Positions 9,224 to 26,671 of a stretch of DNA of 35,159 bases are shown here, piece by piece. The DNA lies in contig CABZSY010000005.1 in assembly GCA_902528505.1 (NCBI GenBank), forward strand, positions 1-35,159, in the 5' to 3' direction. Position 1 is the stretch's first letter. Each line of letters begins with the position of its first letter. Both the position numbers and the translations under genes were made by a program. The notes below the pieces were generated by a model that searched no databases, was not told where the DNA came from, and saw nothing but the letters and a program-made list of their open reading frames with translations. This stretch comes from an uncultured Pelagibacteraceae bacterium. Its GTDB lineage: Bacteria; Pseudomonadota; Alphaproteobacteria; Pelagibacterales; Pelagibacteraceae.

Positions 9224-10224
9224 TGAATGATTTACAAAATGATTTTATTTCAGGGATTGGAAATACTCCCTTAATAAAATTAAGAGCGGCATCAGAAATA
9301 ACTGGATGTAATATTTTTGGAAAAGCAGAATTTTTAAACCCTGGAGGCTCTGTTAAAGATCGAGCAGCTCTTGCTTTAATTAAAGATGCTCAAGAAAAAA
9401 AATTAATTGCTAAAGGTGGAACAGTTGTGGAAGGCACAGCTGGAAATACTGGGATTGGTTTAGGTCTTTTAGGAAATTCATTAGGTTATAAAACTATTAT
9501 TGTAATGAATGATAATCAAACTCAAGAAAAAAAAGATATTCTCAAAAATCTTGGAGCAGAACTAAAACTAGTTCCAGCTAAACCTTATAAAGATGATAAT
9601 AATTTTGTTAAAGTTGCAGCAAGATTAGCCGATGAACTTAGACCTTCTAATAATAATGGAGTAATTTGGGCTAATCAATTTGATAATACAGCAAATGCCA
9701 AAGGTCATTACGAAGGAACAGGTAAAGAAATTTGGGATCAAACCGATGGTAAAGTCGATGGATTTGTATGTTCTTCAGGAACTGGAGGAACAATTTCAGG
9801 AGTTAGTAATGCTCTTAAAGAAAAAAATAAAGATATAAAAATTTTCCTTTCAGATCCAAAAGGTTCTGCTCTTTATAATTATATAAAAAACGGAGAATTA
9901 AAATCTGAAGGTGGATCAATAACGGAAGGAATTGGATCTAGTAGAATAACTACAAATTTTAAAGATGCTAAAATTGATGATGCTTATTCAATTGATGATC
10001 ATGAAGCCTTGCCAATTCTTTATGATTTAATACAAAATGAAGGATTAAGCTTAGGGACCAGCTGTGGGATTAATATTGCAGGAGCCATTAGAATGGGTAA
10101 AGAATTAGGACCAGGAAAAACGATTGTTACAATTCTTTGTGATAGAAGTGATAAATATGCCACTAAAATGTTTAATAAAGAGTTCTTAAAAGAAAAGGGA
10201 CTACCAGTACCTAGTTGGTTTTAA
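9223..10224 (+). CDS. cysK: Cysteine synthase (PLP-dependent O-acetylserine sulfhydrylase)
   Basis: 'GGSVKDRAALALI' (PLP Lys), 'EGTAGNTGIGLGLL', 'GTGGTISGVSNALK'; TAATG overlap with cysE. Confidence 0.93.
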   Translation: MNDLQNDFISGIGNTPLIKLRAASEITGCNIFGKAEFLNPGGSVKDRAALALIKDAQEKKLIAKGGTVVEGTAGNTGIGLGLLGNSLGYKTIIVMNDNQTQEKKDILKNLGAELKLVPAKPYKDDNNFVKVAARLADELRPSNNNGVIWANQFDNTANAKGHYEGTGKEIWDQTDGKVDGFVCSSGTGGTISGVSNALKEKNKDIKIFLSDPKGSALYNYIKNGELKSEGGSITEGIGSSRITTNFKDAKIDDAYSIDDHEALPILYDLIQNEGLSLGTSCGINIAGAIRMGKELGPGKTIVTILCDRSDKYATKMFNKEFLKEKGLPVPSWF

Positions 10225-10637
10225 ACATAAATCTTGTCAGCTAATCCGTAACAGAGAACACCACTTAATATTGTAAGCACTAAGGGTGCATAAATTGCTT
10301 CATCTGAAGTTTTATCAGTGTGCCCAAGTTTGTTTATTTTGGTACTATAAAAACCAACAATAAATGCACAAAGGTTTTGCAAGAAAATTACATTAAAGAA
10401 ACCCCAAGTAGCTTCCAAGCCGTTAGGTCTTATAAAGCCGACATATATTGCCATTAAGGTTGAGCCAATAAATATAGATCCAAAAAATCTAACTACACCT
10501 GCGCCTGTAGCATCCATTCCATATTGATTTAAAAAAGATTGAGTTTGGAAAACACACCTAAATCCATAGTAAGCAAAGCCTATAAAATGAATTAAAAAAA
10601 GAATTAAATAAAAAATTCCATTAAATTTTTCAATCAT
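10221..10637 (-). CDS. Small integral membrane protein, unknown function
   Basis: 138 aa with about four hydrophobic segments; overlaps the cysK stop tail-to-tail. Confidence 0.6.
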   Translation of the reverse strand: MIEKFNGIFYLILFLIHFIGFAYYGFRCVFQTQSFLNQYGMDATGAGVVRFFGSIFIGSTLMAIYVGFIRPNGLEATWGFFNVIFLQNLCAFIVGFYSTKINKLGHTDKTSDEAIYAPLVLTILSGVLCYGLADKIYV

Positions 10638-10730
10638 ATTTTAACAATATCAAAGATAGGTTTTGAATACACTTTATTTTTTGCGAAAATAAATCAAATT
10701 TCAATTGTGAGTTGATGAAGGTTTTGCATA

Positions 10731-10784
10731 TTTGATATACACATTTGACGCACGACGTTTTAATGAATGTGTAACAGTATCAAA
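10731..10784. promoter_or_regulatory. Interrupted inverted repeat upstream of small-protein cluster
   Basis: TTTGATA-TACACATT ... AATGTGTA-acag-TATCAAA: 15 paired bases with a 4-nt bulge around a GACGCACGACG-containing core, 46 nt before the ATG at 10830. Confidence 0.45.
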
Positions 10785-10829
10785 TTAAAAATAGATTAAT
10801 TGTAATATTAAAAAAATTAAAAGGATACT

Positions 10830-11213
10830 ATGGACGCAAAAGAACAAACTAAAAAAGCATATGAACTATTTAGTTCAGGAGATATGGAAACTTTTTTTAA
10901 GGATATAATCGATGATGAAATCGTTTGGACATTTCCAGGCAAAGAAGGTGTACATCCACTTTCTGGAGTTCACAAAGGAAAACAAGCAATGATGGCTGCA
11001 ATGTCCAAAATCCCATCTACTTGGCCAAATTTCCATTTAAAAGTTTTAGATATGATAAGTGAAGGTAATAAAGTATTCGCAAGAGTTCATGCAACTGCGG
11101 ATAACATGGATACTATGTTTGGTCACTATTTTGAAGTGAGTAACGAGGGAAAAACAAAAGTTATGATGACTTTTGATGATACACTTAGCATGTTCAATGC
11201 AATGAAGAAGTAA
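10830..11213 (+). CDS. SnoaL-like / NTF2-superfamily protein
   Basis: 'KKAYELFSSGDMETFFKDIIDDEIVWTFPG..GVHKGKQAMMAAMSKI' is a typical NTF2/SnoaL N-terminal region; RBS AAAGGA. Confidence 0.8.
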   Translation: MDAKEQTKKAYELFSSGDMETFFKDIIDDEIVWTFPGKEGVHPLSGVHKGKQAMMAAMSKIPSTWPNFHLKVLDMISEGNKVFARVHATADNMDTMFGHYFEVSNEGKTKVMMTFDDTLSMFNAMKK

Positions 11214-11236
11214 GAAACAATAGTTTGGAGCGAATA

Positions 11237-11506
11237 ATGGTAAAAATTATTGGTAACTTTGAAGTTAATGATTGGGTTCACTGGAAAAAAATGTTTGACC
11301 AACATTCTAATGCAAGAGAAGCTGCAGGAATTAAAACAATTTATGTTGGAAATGAAATAGAAAATACAAATAAAGTACATATCGTAATGGAAACACCTAC
11401 GGCAGATACAATGCAAAAATTCATGCAAGATCCCGAAAATGCCAGAGTAATTGAGAAATCAGGACACAAACAAGAGACAACAGTAATGAGCGTTTGCTCT
11501 GACTAA
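11237..11506 (+). CDS. Small ferredoxin-like (DUF3764/Dabb-like) alpha+beta protein
   Basis: ATG at 11237 favoured over TTG at 11225. 'MVKIIGNFEVNDWVHWKKMFDQHSNAREAAGIKTIYVGNE..KVHIVMETPTADTMQKFM' has the beta-alpha-beta pattern of DUF3764/ABM-like proteins. Confidence 0.55.
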   Translation: MVKIIGNFEVNDWVHWKKMFDQHSNAREAAGIKTIYVGNEIENTNKVHIVMETPTADTMQKFMQDPENARVIEKSGHKQETTVMSVCSD

Positions 11507-11527
11507 ACAATAAAAAAAGGAGAAAAA

Positions 11528-11815
11528 ATGAAATACTATATGGTAACTCACACTTTTAAATCGAAAGAAATGAAAGACAAATTTAACGAGGTTTTAGGCG
11601 GCATGTCCAGAGAAGATATGATTAAATCTTCCACTAGTGATAAAGCTAAATGCCAAATGACATATTACACCCCGGGTGATACTATGACAATGTTTTGTCA
11701 TTGGATGGCAGAAAGTACTGATGCTATTAATGAACAGCTTTCTCAGATGAACGATTTTTTTGAACCTCATCAATTTACTGAAGTTAAAGAGGAAGTTTTC
11801 GATTTTAACAAATAG
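11528..11815 (+). CDS. Small conserved-type protein, possible ferredoxin-like fold
   Basis: 95 aa, strong SD AAGGAG; 'MKYYMVTHTFKSKEMKDKFNEVLGGM..' fits a beta-alpha-beta pattern. Confidence 0.55.
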   Translation: MKYYMVTHTFKSKEMKDKFNEVLGGMSREDMIKSSTSDKAKCQMTYYTPGDTMTMFCHWMAESTDAINEQLSQMNDFFEPHQFTEVKEEVFDFNK

Positions 11816-11824
11816 GAGATAAAA

Positions 11825-12298
11825 ATGAAAAAAACAATATTAACATTAATAATTTCACTATTAACAACCTACTCTTTAGCTGAAACAGGTAAATTTAATG
11901 CCTCTGGAGCAGGGTCTTGGGCAGTAAATGTAATGGATGGAGGAAATGGAAATATGAGTATTACTTATGATGGTAATGCTGGTCTTTCAGATAAAGAAGG
12001 AAGTATTTTTGATAAGTCTACAATGCACTGTATTGGAGGACTAACTTTGGTTGCCGGAAAATTTGATGACGAAACAGGTATGTGTACTTTTTACCTAATG
12101 GATGGTGAAAAGGTTTTCATTAATTATAAAGGTAAAGGAACTGGAGGCCAAGGTGGATCTGGAGACTTTGTAATTGTTGGTGGTACTGGAAAATATGAAA
12201 AAATTTCTGGAACAGGTTTCTCTAGCAGACAAAATATTAAAGGTAAAGCTGGAATGGCTCATTCATTAAATCAAATGAGTGGAAATTATACTTATTAA
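11825..12298 (+). CDS. Secreted protein, probable allene-oxide-cyclase/dirigent-like beta-barrel
   Basis: Signal peptide 'MKKTILTLIISLLTTYSLA'; Gly-rich repeated strands; 'GDFVIVGGTGKYEKISGTGFSS' resembles the AOC-like barrel motif. RBS TAGGAG. Confidence 0.5.
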   Translation: MKKTILTLIISLLTTYSLAETGKFNASGAGSWAVNVMDGGNGNMSITYDGNAGLSDKEGSIFDKSTMHCIGGLTLVAGKFDDETGMCTFYLMDGEKVFINYKGKGTGGQGGSGDFVIVGGTGKYEKISGTGFSSRQNIKGKAGMAHSLNQMSGNYTY

Positions 12299-12319
12299 TC
12301 AAAAAACAGGAGATATATA

Positions 12320-12697
12320 ATGAGAAAAACGACATTAATATTACTATTTAGTGCTCTTCTTTCATCAACTGCAATTGCAGGGATGTCGGATAGTGATAAA
12401 TCTAGAGCTTGGGAATGTAGCGGGATTTATATGGCCAACTACTTTTTGCCATCTGGTGAAACTTTTGAATACAGTATGAAAGAAAAATCAATGGCATCTG
12501 TAAAAGTTCTTAAATCTTATGCTTTAGAAATAGGAATTCCTGAAAAGGAATGGGATGATGGAGTAAATAAAGCTGTTGATAAGTTTTATGGCTCAAAATA
12601 TGATGAAGCAAAAACAGAGGCTTGTCATACTTTTGTAAATTCAGCTGTTCCAGACGGTGAAGAGCGAGTTAAAAAAGTAGTACAGACTTTATATTAA
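12320..12697 (+). CDS. Secreted small protein, unknown function
   Basis: Signal peptide 'MRKTTLILLFSALLSSTAIAG'; two Cys in the mature part (WEC, EAC); RBS CAGGAG. Confidence 0.6.
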   Translation: MRKTTLILLFSALLSSTAIAGMSDSDKSRAWECSGIYMANYFLPSGETFEYSMKEKSMASVKVLKSYALEIGIPEKEWDDGVNKAVDKFYGSKYDEAKTEACHTFVNSAVPDGEERVKKVVQTLY

Positions 12698-12717
12698 ATT
12701 AACAAAAGGAGAAAATA

Positions 12718-13008
12718 ATGGAAAAAGAAATGTTAGCATTAGTAAATTTTAAAGAAGGTAAAATGGAGACTTTCATGGGATGGATGCAATCTGATGAGGG
12801 AATGGGTGTTAGAAAAAGTGTTGCCTATCCAGAAAAAACTATTGGAGCAATGAAACCAGATAAAACAGGTATGTTGTTCAAGGTTTCAGTTCATAATGAA
12901 CCTGGAATGAAAGAATTTGTAACTGGAAATAACCCTACTGCAAAAGCGATTTATGAAGAATGCATAGAAAGTGCTCAGCTTTGGGAAATGTCAGAGATAA
13001 GTCTTTAA
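12718..13008 (+). CDS. Small protein, possible ferredoxin-like fold, resembles product of 11237-11506
   Basis: 96 aa; RBS AAAGGAG; 'FKVSVHNEPGMKEFVTGNNPTAKAIYEE' parallels 'HIVMETPTADTMQKFMQDPENARVIEK'. Confidence 0.55.
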   Translation: MEKEMLALVNFKEGKMETFMGWMQSDEGMGVRKSVAYPEKTIGAMKPDKTGMLFKVSVHNEPGMKEFVTGNNPTAKAIYEECIESAQLWEMSEISL

Positions 13009-13022
13009 CTTAATAATTAAAA

Positions 13023-13313
13023 ATGCAAGCTGGTTATGCTATTTTTAATATCGAAATAACTAATCCAGAAGATTATAAAGAATATGTTGAAAAAGTTAAA
13101 CCGGTTGCAGAAAAATTTGGTGGTGATTACATAATTAGAGGTGGTACAAACCAAATTATAGAAGGAACTTGGCAATATAGCAGAACTGTTGTAATAAAGT
13201 TTCCGTCCTATGAAAAAGCATTGGAATGGTACAATTCGGAAGAATATCAACCAATAAAACAAATCCGGTTAGTTAATGCAAACACTAATGGGATAATAAT
13301 ACAAGGAGCATAA
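13023..13313 (+). CDS. DUF1330 family protein
   Basis: 'MQAGYAIFNIEITNPEDYKEYVEKVKPVAEKFGGDYIIRGG..ALEWYNSEEYQPIKQIR' matches the DUF1330 pattern. Confidence 0.88.
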   Translation: MQAGYAIFNIEITNPEDYKEYVEKVKPVAEKFGGDYIIRGGTNQIIEGTWQYSRTVVIKFPSYEKALEWYNSEEYQPIKQIRLVNANTNGIIIQGA

Positions 13314-13315
13314 AA

Positions 13316-13636
13316 ATGTCGATATTAGAAAAATATAGCGCTGCTTTGAAAAACAAAGATGAAGCAGCAATGAATGAACTTTTGCATGATGATTTTAAAT
13401 TTACAATGCATAAGTCAGGAAATGTTTTAAATAAAAGCGACGTAATGAAATGGGCTATGAGTGGTGACATTAATCAAGATAAAGTGAGAATAGTTTACGA
13501 AAATGATGAAGTAGGAGTTCATCATGCTTTTGTGACATTTAATGATGGTAATGTTGAAGCTGTAATGGCTGTTTACAAATATAAAGATGGAAAAATAGCA
13601 AGCTTGGAGACAGGCGCTACTCCAATACCTAAATAA
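13316..13636 (+). CDS. SnoaL-like / NTF2-superfamily protein
   Basis: 'MSILEKYSAALKNKDEAAMNELLHDDFKFTMH..VMAVYKYKDGKIASLETG'; RBS AAGGAG. Confidence 0.75.
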   Translation: MSILEKYSAALKNKDEAAMNELLHDDFKFTMHKSGNVLNKSDVMKWAMSGDINQDKVRIVYENDEVGVHHAFVTFNDGNVEAVMAVYKYKDGKIASLETGATPIPK

Positions 13637-13674
13637 TTATATAAATTTAGCGAGATATCATTTAAAGTCACAAA

Positions 13675-14007
13675 ATGAGTCTCGCTACTTCCTACCTTTT
13701 TCTAGGAATTGCTGTTTTCTTAGGTGTTACTTCAAATAGTTTTGCAAAAAGTGCTGAGGGATTTACCCTTCTCTTTCCAAGTATCATTACAGCAATTACT
13801 ATAGTTCTATGTATGTATGCACTTTCTTTAGTGATGAAAAATATACCAATGGGCATAACCTATGCGTCATTTGCAGGATTAACAATTATAGCAACTGTTA
13901 TCGTTGGTATTATCAGATTTAACCAAGTGCCAAATTTATATTCATTAATTGGATTAGCTCTTATAATCATTGGTGTGTTAATGGTTAACTTATTAGGAAA
14001 TAATTAA
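13675..14007 (+). CDS. SMR-like small membrane transporter (EmrE-type fold), lacks the Glu14 equivalent
   Basis: 110 aa, 4 TM; 'SAEGFTLLFPSIIT', 'IPMGITYASFAGLTII', 'LYSLIGLALIIIGVLMVNLLG' align with EmrE; GGT (Gly17) at the EmrE Glu14 position. Confidence 0.8.
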   Translation: MSLATSYLFLGIAVFLGVTSNSFAKSAEGFTLLFPSIITAITIVLCMYALSLVMKNIPMGITYASFAGLTIIATVIVGIIRFNQVPNLYSLIGLALIIIGVLMVNLLGNN

Positions 14008-14009
14008 AT

Positions 14010-14234
14010 ATGATTAAAAAAAAATATGCACAATTTGTTTTTATTTTCTTAATGTCTTTTGGAATGAGTTTAATTATGAGTGGTGTTGTTGTAGCTGTTA
14101 ATACAAGTTTAACTGATGGATTTTTTGGAAGGTGGTTTTATTCTTGGATGTTTGCTTTTCCTGTTGCTCTAATAGCTGCTATTTTAATAGCACCAGTGAT
14201 AAGATCACTCATAGATAAAATTACAATAGATTAA
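14010..14234 (+). CDS. DUF2798-type small membrane protein
   Basis: 74 aa, two TM; 'FIFLMSFGMSLIMSGVVVAVNT..FFGRWFYSWMFAFPVALIAAILIAPVIRSLIDKI' fits DUF2798. Confidence 0.75.
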   Translation: MIKKKYAQFVFIFLMSFGMSLIMSGVVVAVNTSLTDGFFGRWFYSWMFAFPVALIAAILIAPVIRSLIDKITID

Positions 14235-14236
14235 CT

Positions 14237-14572
14237 ATGAAACCTTTTTTAGGATATTTATTCTTAGCAAATGGAATTATATTTGGAATAGCCTCAAACA
14301 GTCTTGCTAAAATTTCTGATGGTTTTACAAAATTTACTCCATCGTTCTTATGTATATTATTTATGTGTATTACAATGTTTTCAATAGCAAAGGCTATGTC
14401 TGCTCTTCCCGTTGGGTTTGCTTATTCTACTTACAGTGGATTAACTGTAACAGGGGTTGTTCTATTTGCTGTACTTAAATTTAACCAAATTCCAAATATC
14501 TATGGGATAATTGGAATAATATTAATTATAATTGGTGTAGTGATGGTAAATTATTTGGGGAGAATAAGTTAA
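14237..14572 (+). CDS. SMR-like small membrane transporter (second paralogue), lacks the Glu14 equivalent
   Basis: 111 aa, 4 TM; 'SDGFTKFTPSFLC', 'LPVGFAYSTYSGLTVTG', 'IYGIIGIILIIIGVVMVNYLG'; GGA (Gly17) at the Glu14 position. Confidence 0.8.
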   Translation: MKPFLGYLFLANGIIFGIASNSLAKISDGFTKFTPSFLCILFMCITMFSIAKAMSALPVGFAYSTYSGLTVTGVVLFAVLKFNQIPNIYGIIGIILIIIGVVMVNYLGRIS

Positions 14573-25695: not shown

Positions 25696-26671
25696 CTACT
25701 TAATGTAACCTAAAGCTTTAAGTTGAGCAGTCATTTCTGCAAGCATAACTTCCATTTGCTTACCCCACTCATCAGCTCCAACTACACTGGTTGAATCAAG
25801 ACCAATGTCAGTTAAAAAACTTTGGAAATATTTATGCTCCATAGCTTTTATCATTGCATCCTCTAATTGTTTTTTTCTATCTCCAGGGACACCTTTTTTT
25901 GTTACAAATCCTCTAACTGTAGATAAAACAACTGGAATCCCTAACTCAGTAGCAGTAGGAACATTACTTAATTTTTCCATTCTATTACTTGCTAAGACAA
26001 CTGACACGCATAAAGTACCATCTTCTATTTCAGTAACAGCTTCACCTAAATTTAAAACACCTACATCAATATCTCCTTTGATAAGGTTCGTTTTAATAGG
26101 TCCAACACCTTTGTAAGCTACAATTGTTGGGTCTGTTAATTTTCCTTTTTTTAGTAAAAGCAATAGCACTTACATCATCAATACCACCTACATGAGTTGT
26201 TCCATATTTCAACGATTTTGATTTTTGAGCACTAATAAACTTTTTTGCATCTTTGATGTCATTTTTACAATTAACAACAAATAATTGAGGATCATCTGTT
26301 CCTCTCGCTAACGGTTGCATATCACTTAATTTAACTTTGGTTTTTCCCAAAGCCATAGATACAGCATGTCCAGTAGTCCAAGTTAAAGTATGATTTCCAT
26401 CTGCTGGTAAAGTCATCATATAATCCATAGATGCAGCTCCACCACCACCTTTTTTGTTAACTAATTGCATATCTTGTTTTAGATATCTTCTAGTTCTTAA
26501 CAACATCATTCTAGTAGTTACGTCTGTACCACCACCAAAACCAGCATGTGTAACTGCTTGAATTGGGTGACCGTCTGCTTTAGCAGATGTAATCATAAGT
26601 GGAAGTGCTACGACAAAGAATTCAGTCACTAAAAACGCAGCAGCCAAAAACAATTTAAAGCTTTTTTTCAT
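25696..26671 (-). pseudogene. tctC: Tripartite tricarboxylate transporter solute-binding protein (TctC family), split by a frameshift
   Basis: ORF 26093-26671 (signal peptide, '..YGTTHVGGIDDVSAIAFTKK|RKINRP') and ORF 25696-26169 ('..KKGKLTDPTIVAYKGVGPIKTNLIKGDIDVGVLN..') are the two halves of one TctC protein, joined by a 1-nt shift at the T7 run 26146-26152. Confidence 0.85.

Follow-up and report, generated by a model that had tools for sequence, protein, structure and literature searches.

SMR proteins are a minimal model for proton-coupled transport, and the three subtypes of the family that transport cations are held to require their central membrane glutamate. Two Glu14 carboxylates in EmrE couple drug transport to protons and form hydrogen bonds to Tyr60 and to the backbone of Trp63 (PMC11133458). 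The central Glu of Gdx, Qac, and polyamine SMRs binds cation and protons alike, and a review of the family names it as a key feature together with a Tyr switch, a binding-site Trp, and a GXG fulcrum in TM3 (PMC9574504). In the lipid SMRs ArnE/ArnF, the central Glu is often missing, with Asn in its place and the Tyr switch retained, and it has been suggested that these proteins are perhaps not proton coupled (PMC9574504).

The 35,159 nucleotides of Pelagibacteraceae DNA analyzed here (the window) encode two four-helix SMR proteins, SMR-A (13675 to 14007, + strand; 110 aa) and SMR-B (14237 to 14572, + strand; 111 aa), that score far over the PF00893 cut-off of 23.7 bits (63.8 and 56.3 bits, respectively). 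Between them lies a gene for a 74-aa membrane protein of the DUF2798 type (14010 to 14234, + strand; Pfam PF11391, 68 bits), with a gap of 2 nt on either side. By phmmer, both SMR proteins align with EmrE over ≈103 residues without gaps, and a glycine codon lands on Glu14 in each, GGT in SMR-A (13723 to 13725, + strand) and GGA in SMR-B (14285 to 14287, + strand). With the EmrE equivalents in parentheses, SMR-A contains Gly17 (Glu14), Asn21 (T18), Tyr63 (Y60), Phe66 (W63), and Thr70 (G67), and SMR-B contains Gly17 (Glu14), Asn21 (T18), Lys52 (49), Tyr63 (Y60), Tyr66 (W63), and Thr70 (G67); EmrE numbers are used from here on. The ORF coordinates and the alignment thus confirm an earlier reading of the letters alone, the first-pass annotation, which had put Gly at the Glu14 position of both proteins. 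AlphaFold models of the two proteins have four helices, with a pLDDT of 70 (moderate quality) for SMR-A and 82 for SMR-B. Compared with EmrE in Foldseek, they give TM scores of 0.78 and 0.80, and EmrE and Gdx-Clo are the best PDB matches of both (TM 0.72–0.80 for the top chains).

To place these two proteins in a wider context, we gathered their homologs from more than 200 Pelagibacterales (SAR11) loci, yielding 129 distinct A and 112 distinct B proteins. Assignment to A or B followed residue 63, at which no Gly14 protein had anything but Phe or Tyr. All 241 carry Gly14, Asn18, Phe63 (A) or Tyr63 (B), and Thr, Cys, or Ala at 67, and Tyr60, Lys22, and Asn102 are invariant as well. The 60 SMRs used for comparison, 15 from Pelagibacterales and 45 from other Pseudomonadota (one of these from a viral contig), have instead Glu14, Trp63, and Gly67 without exception and Thr18 in 55 cases; no intermediate between the two patterns was found among the 241 and 60 proteins. 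Gly14 is a fixed clade trait and not a peculiarity of one genome. Of the four key SMR features, A and B retain only the Tyr switch in full. A compensating Asp or Glu was sought in the membrane part of TM1 to TM4 and found in none of the 129 A and 112 B proteins, barring Glu87 at the loop/TM4 edge in 3/129 A. The first-pass annotation had suggested looking for a clade defined by Gly plus SNS, had described the rest of the fold as kept, and had allowed that a proper alignment might reveal an acidic residue at the functional position. The clade exists, marked by Gly14 and Asn18, and the alignment places no acidic residue at position 14. The SNS is common to the two proteins of the window but not invariant across the family, in which Gly14, Asn18, and Lys22 are fixed, position 17 is mostly Ser or Ala, and position 19 mostly Ser or Gly. 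Similarly, the EmrE-like fold and the Tyr60 switch are kept, but Trp63 and Gly67 are replaced in every A and B. Position 49 of SMR-B, near the end of TM2, is invariantly basic (Lys in 110/112, Arg in 2/112) and is mostly His in the Glu-bearing SAR11 relatives. One SMR-B from another genus of the family (genome G211, locus L082, 6491 to 6832) has an extra TM1 residue, NGYFLK versus NGFLK.

Among the subtype profiles, the best match of both proteins is the Qac type (E = 9e-24 for SMR-A and 6e-17 for SMR-B). A and B share fold, length, and the Tyr60 switch with Qac-type SMRs (EmrE, QacC/G/H/J) and differ from them in the absence of the central Glu, Trp63, and the GXG fulcrum and in the replacement of Thr18 by Asn18. 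The tree that the first-pass annotation had proposed was built from 99 proteins with columns 14, 18, 63, and 67 removed, and it places A (support 99/98) and B (100/99) as clades of their own, joined to each other (98/87), inside a Pelagibacterales clade (100/100). The Glu-bearing members of the Pelagibacterales clade fall outside A and B in no resolved branching order, and residue 14 needs one change on the tree. A and B are sister families, and the Glu was most likely lost in one event before they split, because the tree joins them without the help of the trait columns and because their changes are identical at 14 and 18 and similar at 63 and 67. Independent losses in A and B are not favored by the tree; an AU test in which A was held together with the Glu-bearing rows does not reject them (p = 0.40). 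The presence of the same loss in both paralogs, to which the first-pass annotation had appealed, is therefore correct as an observation but does not amount to two independent ones, given the A+B node.

The ancestor of A and B was probably a Glu-bearing, Qac-like SAR11 SMR lineage that is still present in some genomes. A different contig of the genome studied here encodes a third SMR, in which the Glu is normal. The Glu-bearing Pelagibacterales SMRs (e.g., at loci L206-L214 and L036) share with A and B the Pelagibacterales clade and the loop 3 motif KY(K/N)QIPN, but unlike them retain Glu14, Thr18, Trp63, and Gly67. Their genes mostly adjoin TauD, thioesterase, and BKACE genes. At L206-L214, the Glu-bearing SMR gene sits between a TauD-family dioxygenase gene and thioesterase/BKACE genes, a context that suggests a link to quaternary amine (carnitine-like) metabolism. 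An Arctic SAR11 island containing an SMR gene has a gene list that matches the TauD/thioesterase/BKACE context (PMC12421898), and by that context its SMR probably belongs to the Glu-bearing lineage and not to A or B. A search of the open-access literature found no description of Glu-less SAR11 SMR proteins; the one pertinent article on SMRs in SAR11 that it turned up was that on the Arctic island.

In 148 sampled Pelagibacterales genomes, nearly all at least 90% complete, A occurs in 83 and B in ≈110 (113 were tallied, of which three are cross-hits to A). In samples of 289 genomes at class level and 399 at phylum level, the matches to A and B that lay outside the order were all much weaker; all of those whose sequence was read have Glu14, although such searches favor A/B-like sequences, so that Glu-less SMRs unrelated to A and B may exist elsewhere. 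An origin from phage was considered and rejected, since the single viral-contig match is 35% identical and Glu-bearing. The usual site in Pelagibacter is the end of a shuffled island between cysE-cysK and an inositol-monophosphatase-like (IMP) gene, and in other genera and a second family A or B lies outside this cysK-IMP island. The gene types of the island, in varying order, are SnoaL-like, DUF1330, DUF2798, DUF952, GYD-like, carboxymuconolactone-decarboxylase-type, DSBA-like thioredoxin-domain, and other small proteins. The region from cysE-cysK to the IMP-like gene (10221 to 14572 of the window; loci L056-L091) is a Pelagibacter hot spot, in which small proteins (SnoaL, DUF1330, DUF2798, SCO4226-like, and others) recur in an order and number that differ between genomes. 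Directly upstream of SMR-A in the window is a SnoaL-like gene (13316 to 13636, + strand; Pfam SnoaL_2), and the remainder of the variable island (10830 to 13313, + strand) encodes SnoaL-like, DUF3764-like, SCO4226-like (a weak match), and DUF1330 proteins, two proteins with a signal-peptide-like hydrophobic N terminus, and one protein with no Pfam match. No riboswitch or other known RNA was found near the operon. Elsewhere in the window, two adjoining ORFs (25696 to 26671, − strand) resemble, from their translations alone, the two parts of a single frameshifted substrate-binding protein of the tripartite-tricarboxylate type, and they adjoin TctB- and TctA-like genes.

What might an SMR protein do without its central glutamate? 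The usual exchange of two protons for a cation should be impossible in A and B because both carboxylates are gone. We see about an even chance that A and B represent an SMR variant without proton coupling by the central carboxylate, acting as a homodimeric facilitator or flippase for a non-cationic compound. The assembly that we envisage is antiparallel and dual-topology; since A is found in genomes lacking B, and B in genomes lacking A, a pair of identical subunits would be its simplest composition. Such a dimer would still alternate access, and its cargo, a polar or amphipathic compound that is not a cation, would follow the gradient of that compound itself, by facilitated diffusion or flipping, through a neutral pocket to which each subunit would contribute Asn18 and Tyr60. 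The small enzymes of the same island would probably make or consume this cargo; that it consists of small organic, perhaps reactive or aromatic, metabolites is a guess suggested by the island. Coupling to protons could also proceed through another residue or a water chain invisible in sequence.

A more specific form of transport is unlikely but deserves consideration: A and B could be flippases for a lipid or lipid-linked metabolite, convergent with ArnE/ArnF, with the neutral pocket binding the polar head group and the TM2 portal passing the tail. Replacement of the central Glu with retention of the Tyr switch is common to A/B and ArnE/ArnF (PMC9574504); the latter are a precedent in function and not close relatives. 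Membership in this Glu-poor lipid subtype, an outcome that the first-pass annotation had allowed for, is ruled out by the profile scores: the ArnE/ArnF models reach only E = 0.02–0.07 and 13–15 bits, against cut-offs of 92–99, so that the similarity is barely detectable and the sequences lie near Qac instead. The substitution itself also differs, as A and B have Gly and not Asn at position 14, and their Asn is one helical turn off, at 18. Finally, no glycolipid operon was seen, and the recurrent neighbors of A and B include no recognizable lipid-carrier or polysaccharide gene.

We regard as similarly improbable that A and B form an obligate heterodimer in the manner of paired SMRs, perhaps with DUF2798 as a third subunit. 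Like EbrA/EbrB and MdtI/MdtJ, A and B can be two SMR genes in one operon. A census covered 116 distinct SMR-A genes whose flanks were available. The nearest gene downstream, in the same orientation and mostly 1–2 nt away, is DUF2798 for 64 of them and SMR-B for 25; most A-DUF2798 or A-B arrangements are 1–2 nt apart or slightly overlapping, and A-DUF2798-B is often a tight operon. The nearest recognized gene upstream is DSBA-like in 53/116 and SnoaL-like in 32/116. DUF2798, as the commonest direct downstream neighbor of SMR-A, is a candidate accessory subunit, and the frequent sharing of one operon by A and B allows for a mixed complex of the two with DUF2798. Co-occurrence is above expectation as well, with both genes in 73, A only in 10, B only in 37, and neither in 28 of the 148 genomes (counted by hand; Fisher p = 2e-5), but genome incompleteness and relatedness inflate this value. 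Against an obligate pairing, each protein is found alone, single-contig genomes included (A without B in G013 and G015, B without A in G005 and G026). Unlike paired SMRs, moreover, A and B are both Glu-less and often have DUF2798 between them. We also calculated a charge bias as Lys/Arg in the N terminus, loop 2, and C terminus minus those in loops 1 and 3. Paired SMRs typically differ in sign (PMC9574504), whereas the values for A (−0.64) and B (−1.08) have the same sign and are close to that for SMRs outside the order (−0.76). The weakness of this bias and the solitary occurrence of either gene would fit a dual-topology homodimer.

A third alternative, which we consider less probable still, is that A and B transport nothing and, their transport site being dead, serve in the membrane as a scaffold, sensor, or decoy. 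Three features that matter for transport in characterized SMRs, namely Glu14, Trp63, and the GXG fulcrum (PMC9574504), are gone, and replacement of the Gly67 fulcrum could impair alternation and thereby favor a static role. The pattern of constraint argues otherwise. A and B are under strong purifying selection, with a median dN/dS of 0.039 and 0.049, respectively, in moderately close pairs. Position 14 makes use of each of the four Gly codons. In SMR-A, 15 of 17 pocket-lining positions, picked by what is known of the EmrE and Gdx structures, are invariant, compared with 8 of 38 other positions in TM1 to TM3 (p = 1.3e-5). The pocket of SMR-B is likewise more conserved than the rest of TM1 to TM3 (p = 0.0013), the nine pocket positions named in PMC11133458 give the same result, and the Tyr switch is invariant. 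This looks like the conservation pattern of a working binding site. The first-pass annotation had offered a different transport mechanism or a non-transport role; the residue pattern supports the former, and the conservation of the pocket lining of A, which exceeds that of any other part of the protein, makes a pure non-transport role less likely. Its case against decay holds because Gly14 is invariant and selection is purifying, and loss in one genome through decay, sequencing error, or misalignment, which we credit with practically no probability, is refuted by Gly14 in 241/241 proteins, four Gly codons, a dN/dS of ≈0.04, and the gap-free alignment.

The genes are carried by SAR11, which count among Earth's most abundant bacteria and dominate the surface ocean, and A or B is present in most of the Pelagibacterales genomes sampled. 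An annotation as drug or quaternary ammonium efflux, which such genes would receive, is probably wrong. With somewhat less than even confidence, we propose that A and B constitute a fifth functional subtype of SMR proteins, restricted to SAR11, in which four linked replacements in the core would have turned a proton-coupled cation exchanger into an uncoupled facilitator or flippase for neutral cargo. The clade would show how coupling can be removed from a minimal transporter and which residues change alongside, and comparison with the Glu-bearing relatives within Pelagibacterales offers a direct test of the transition.
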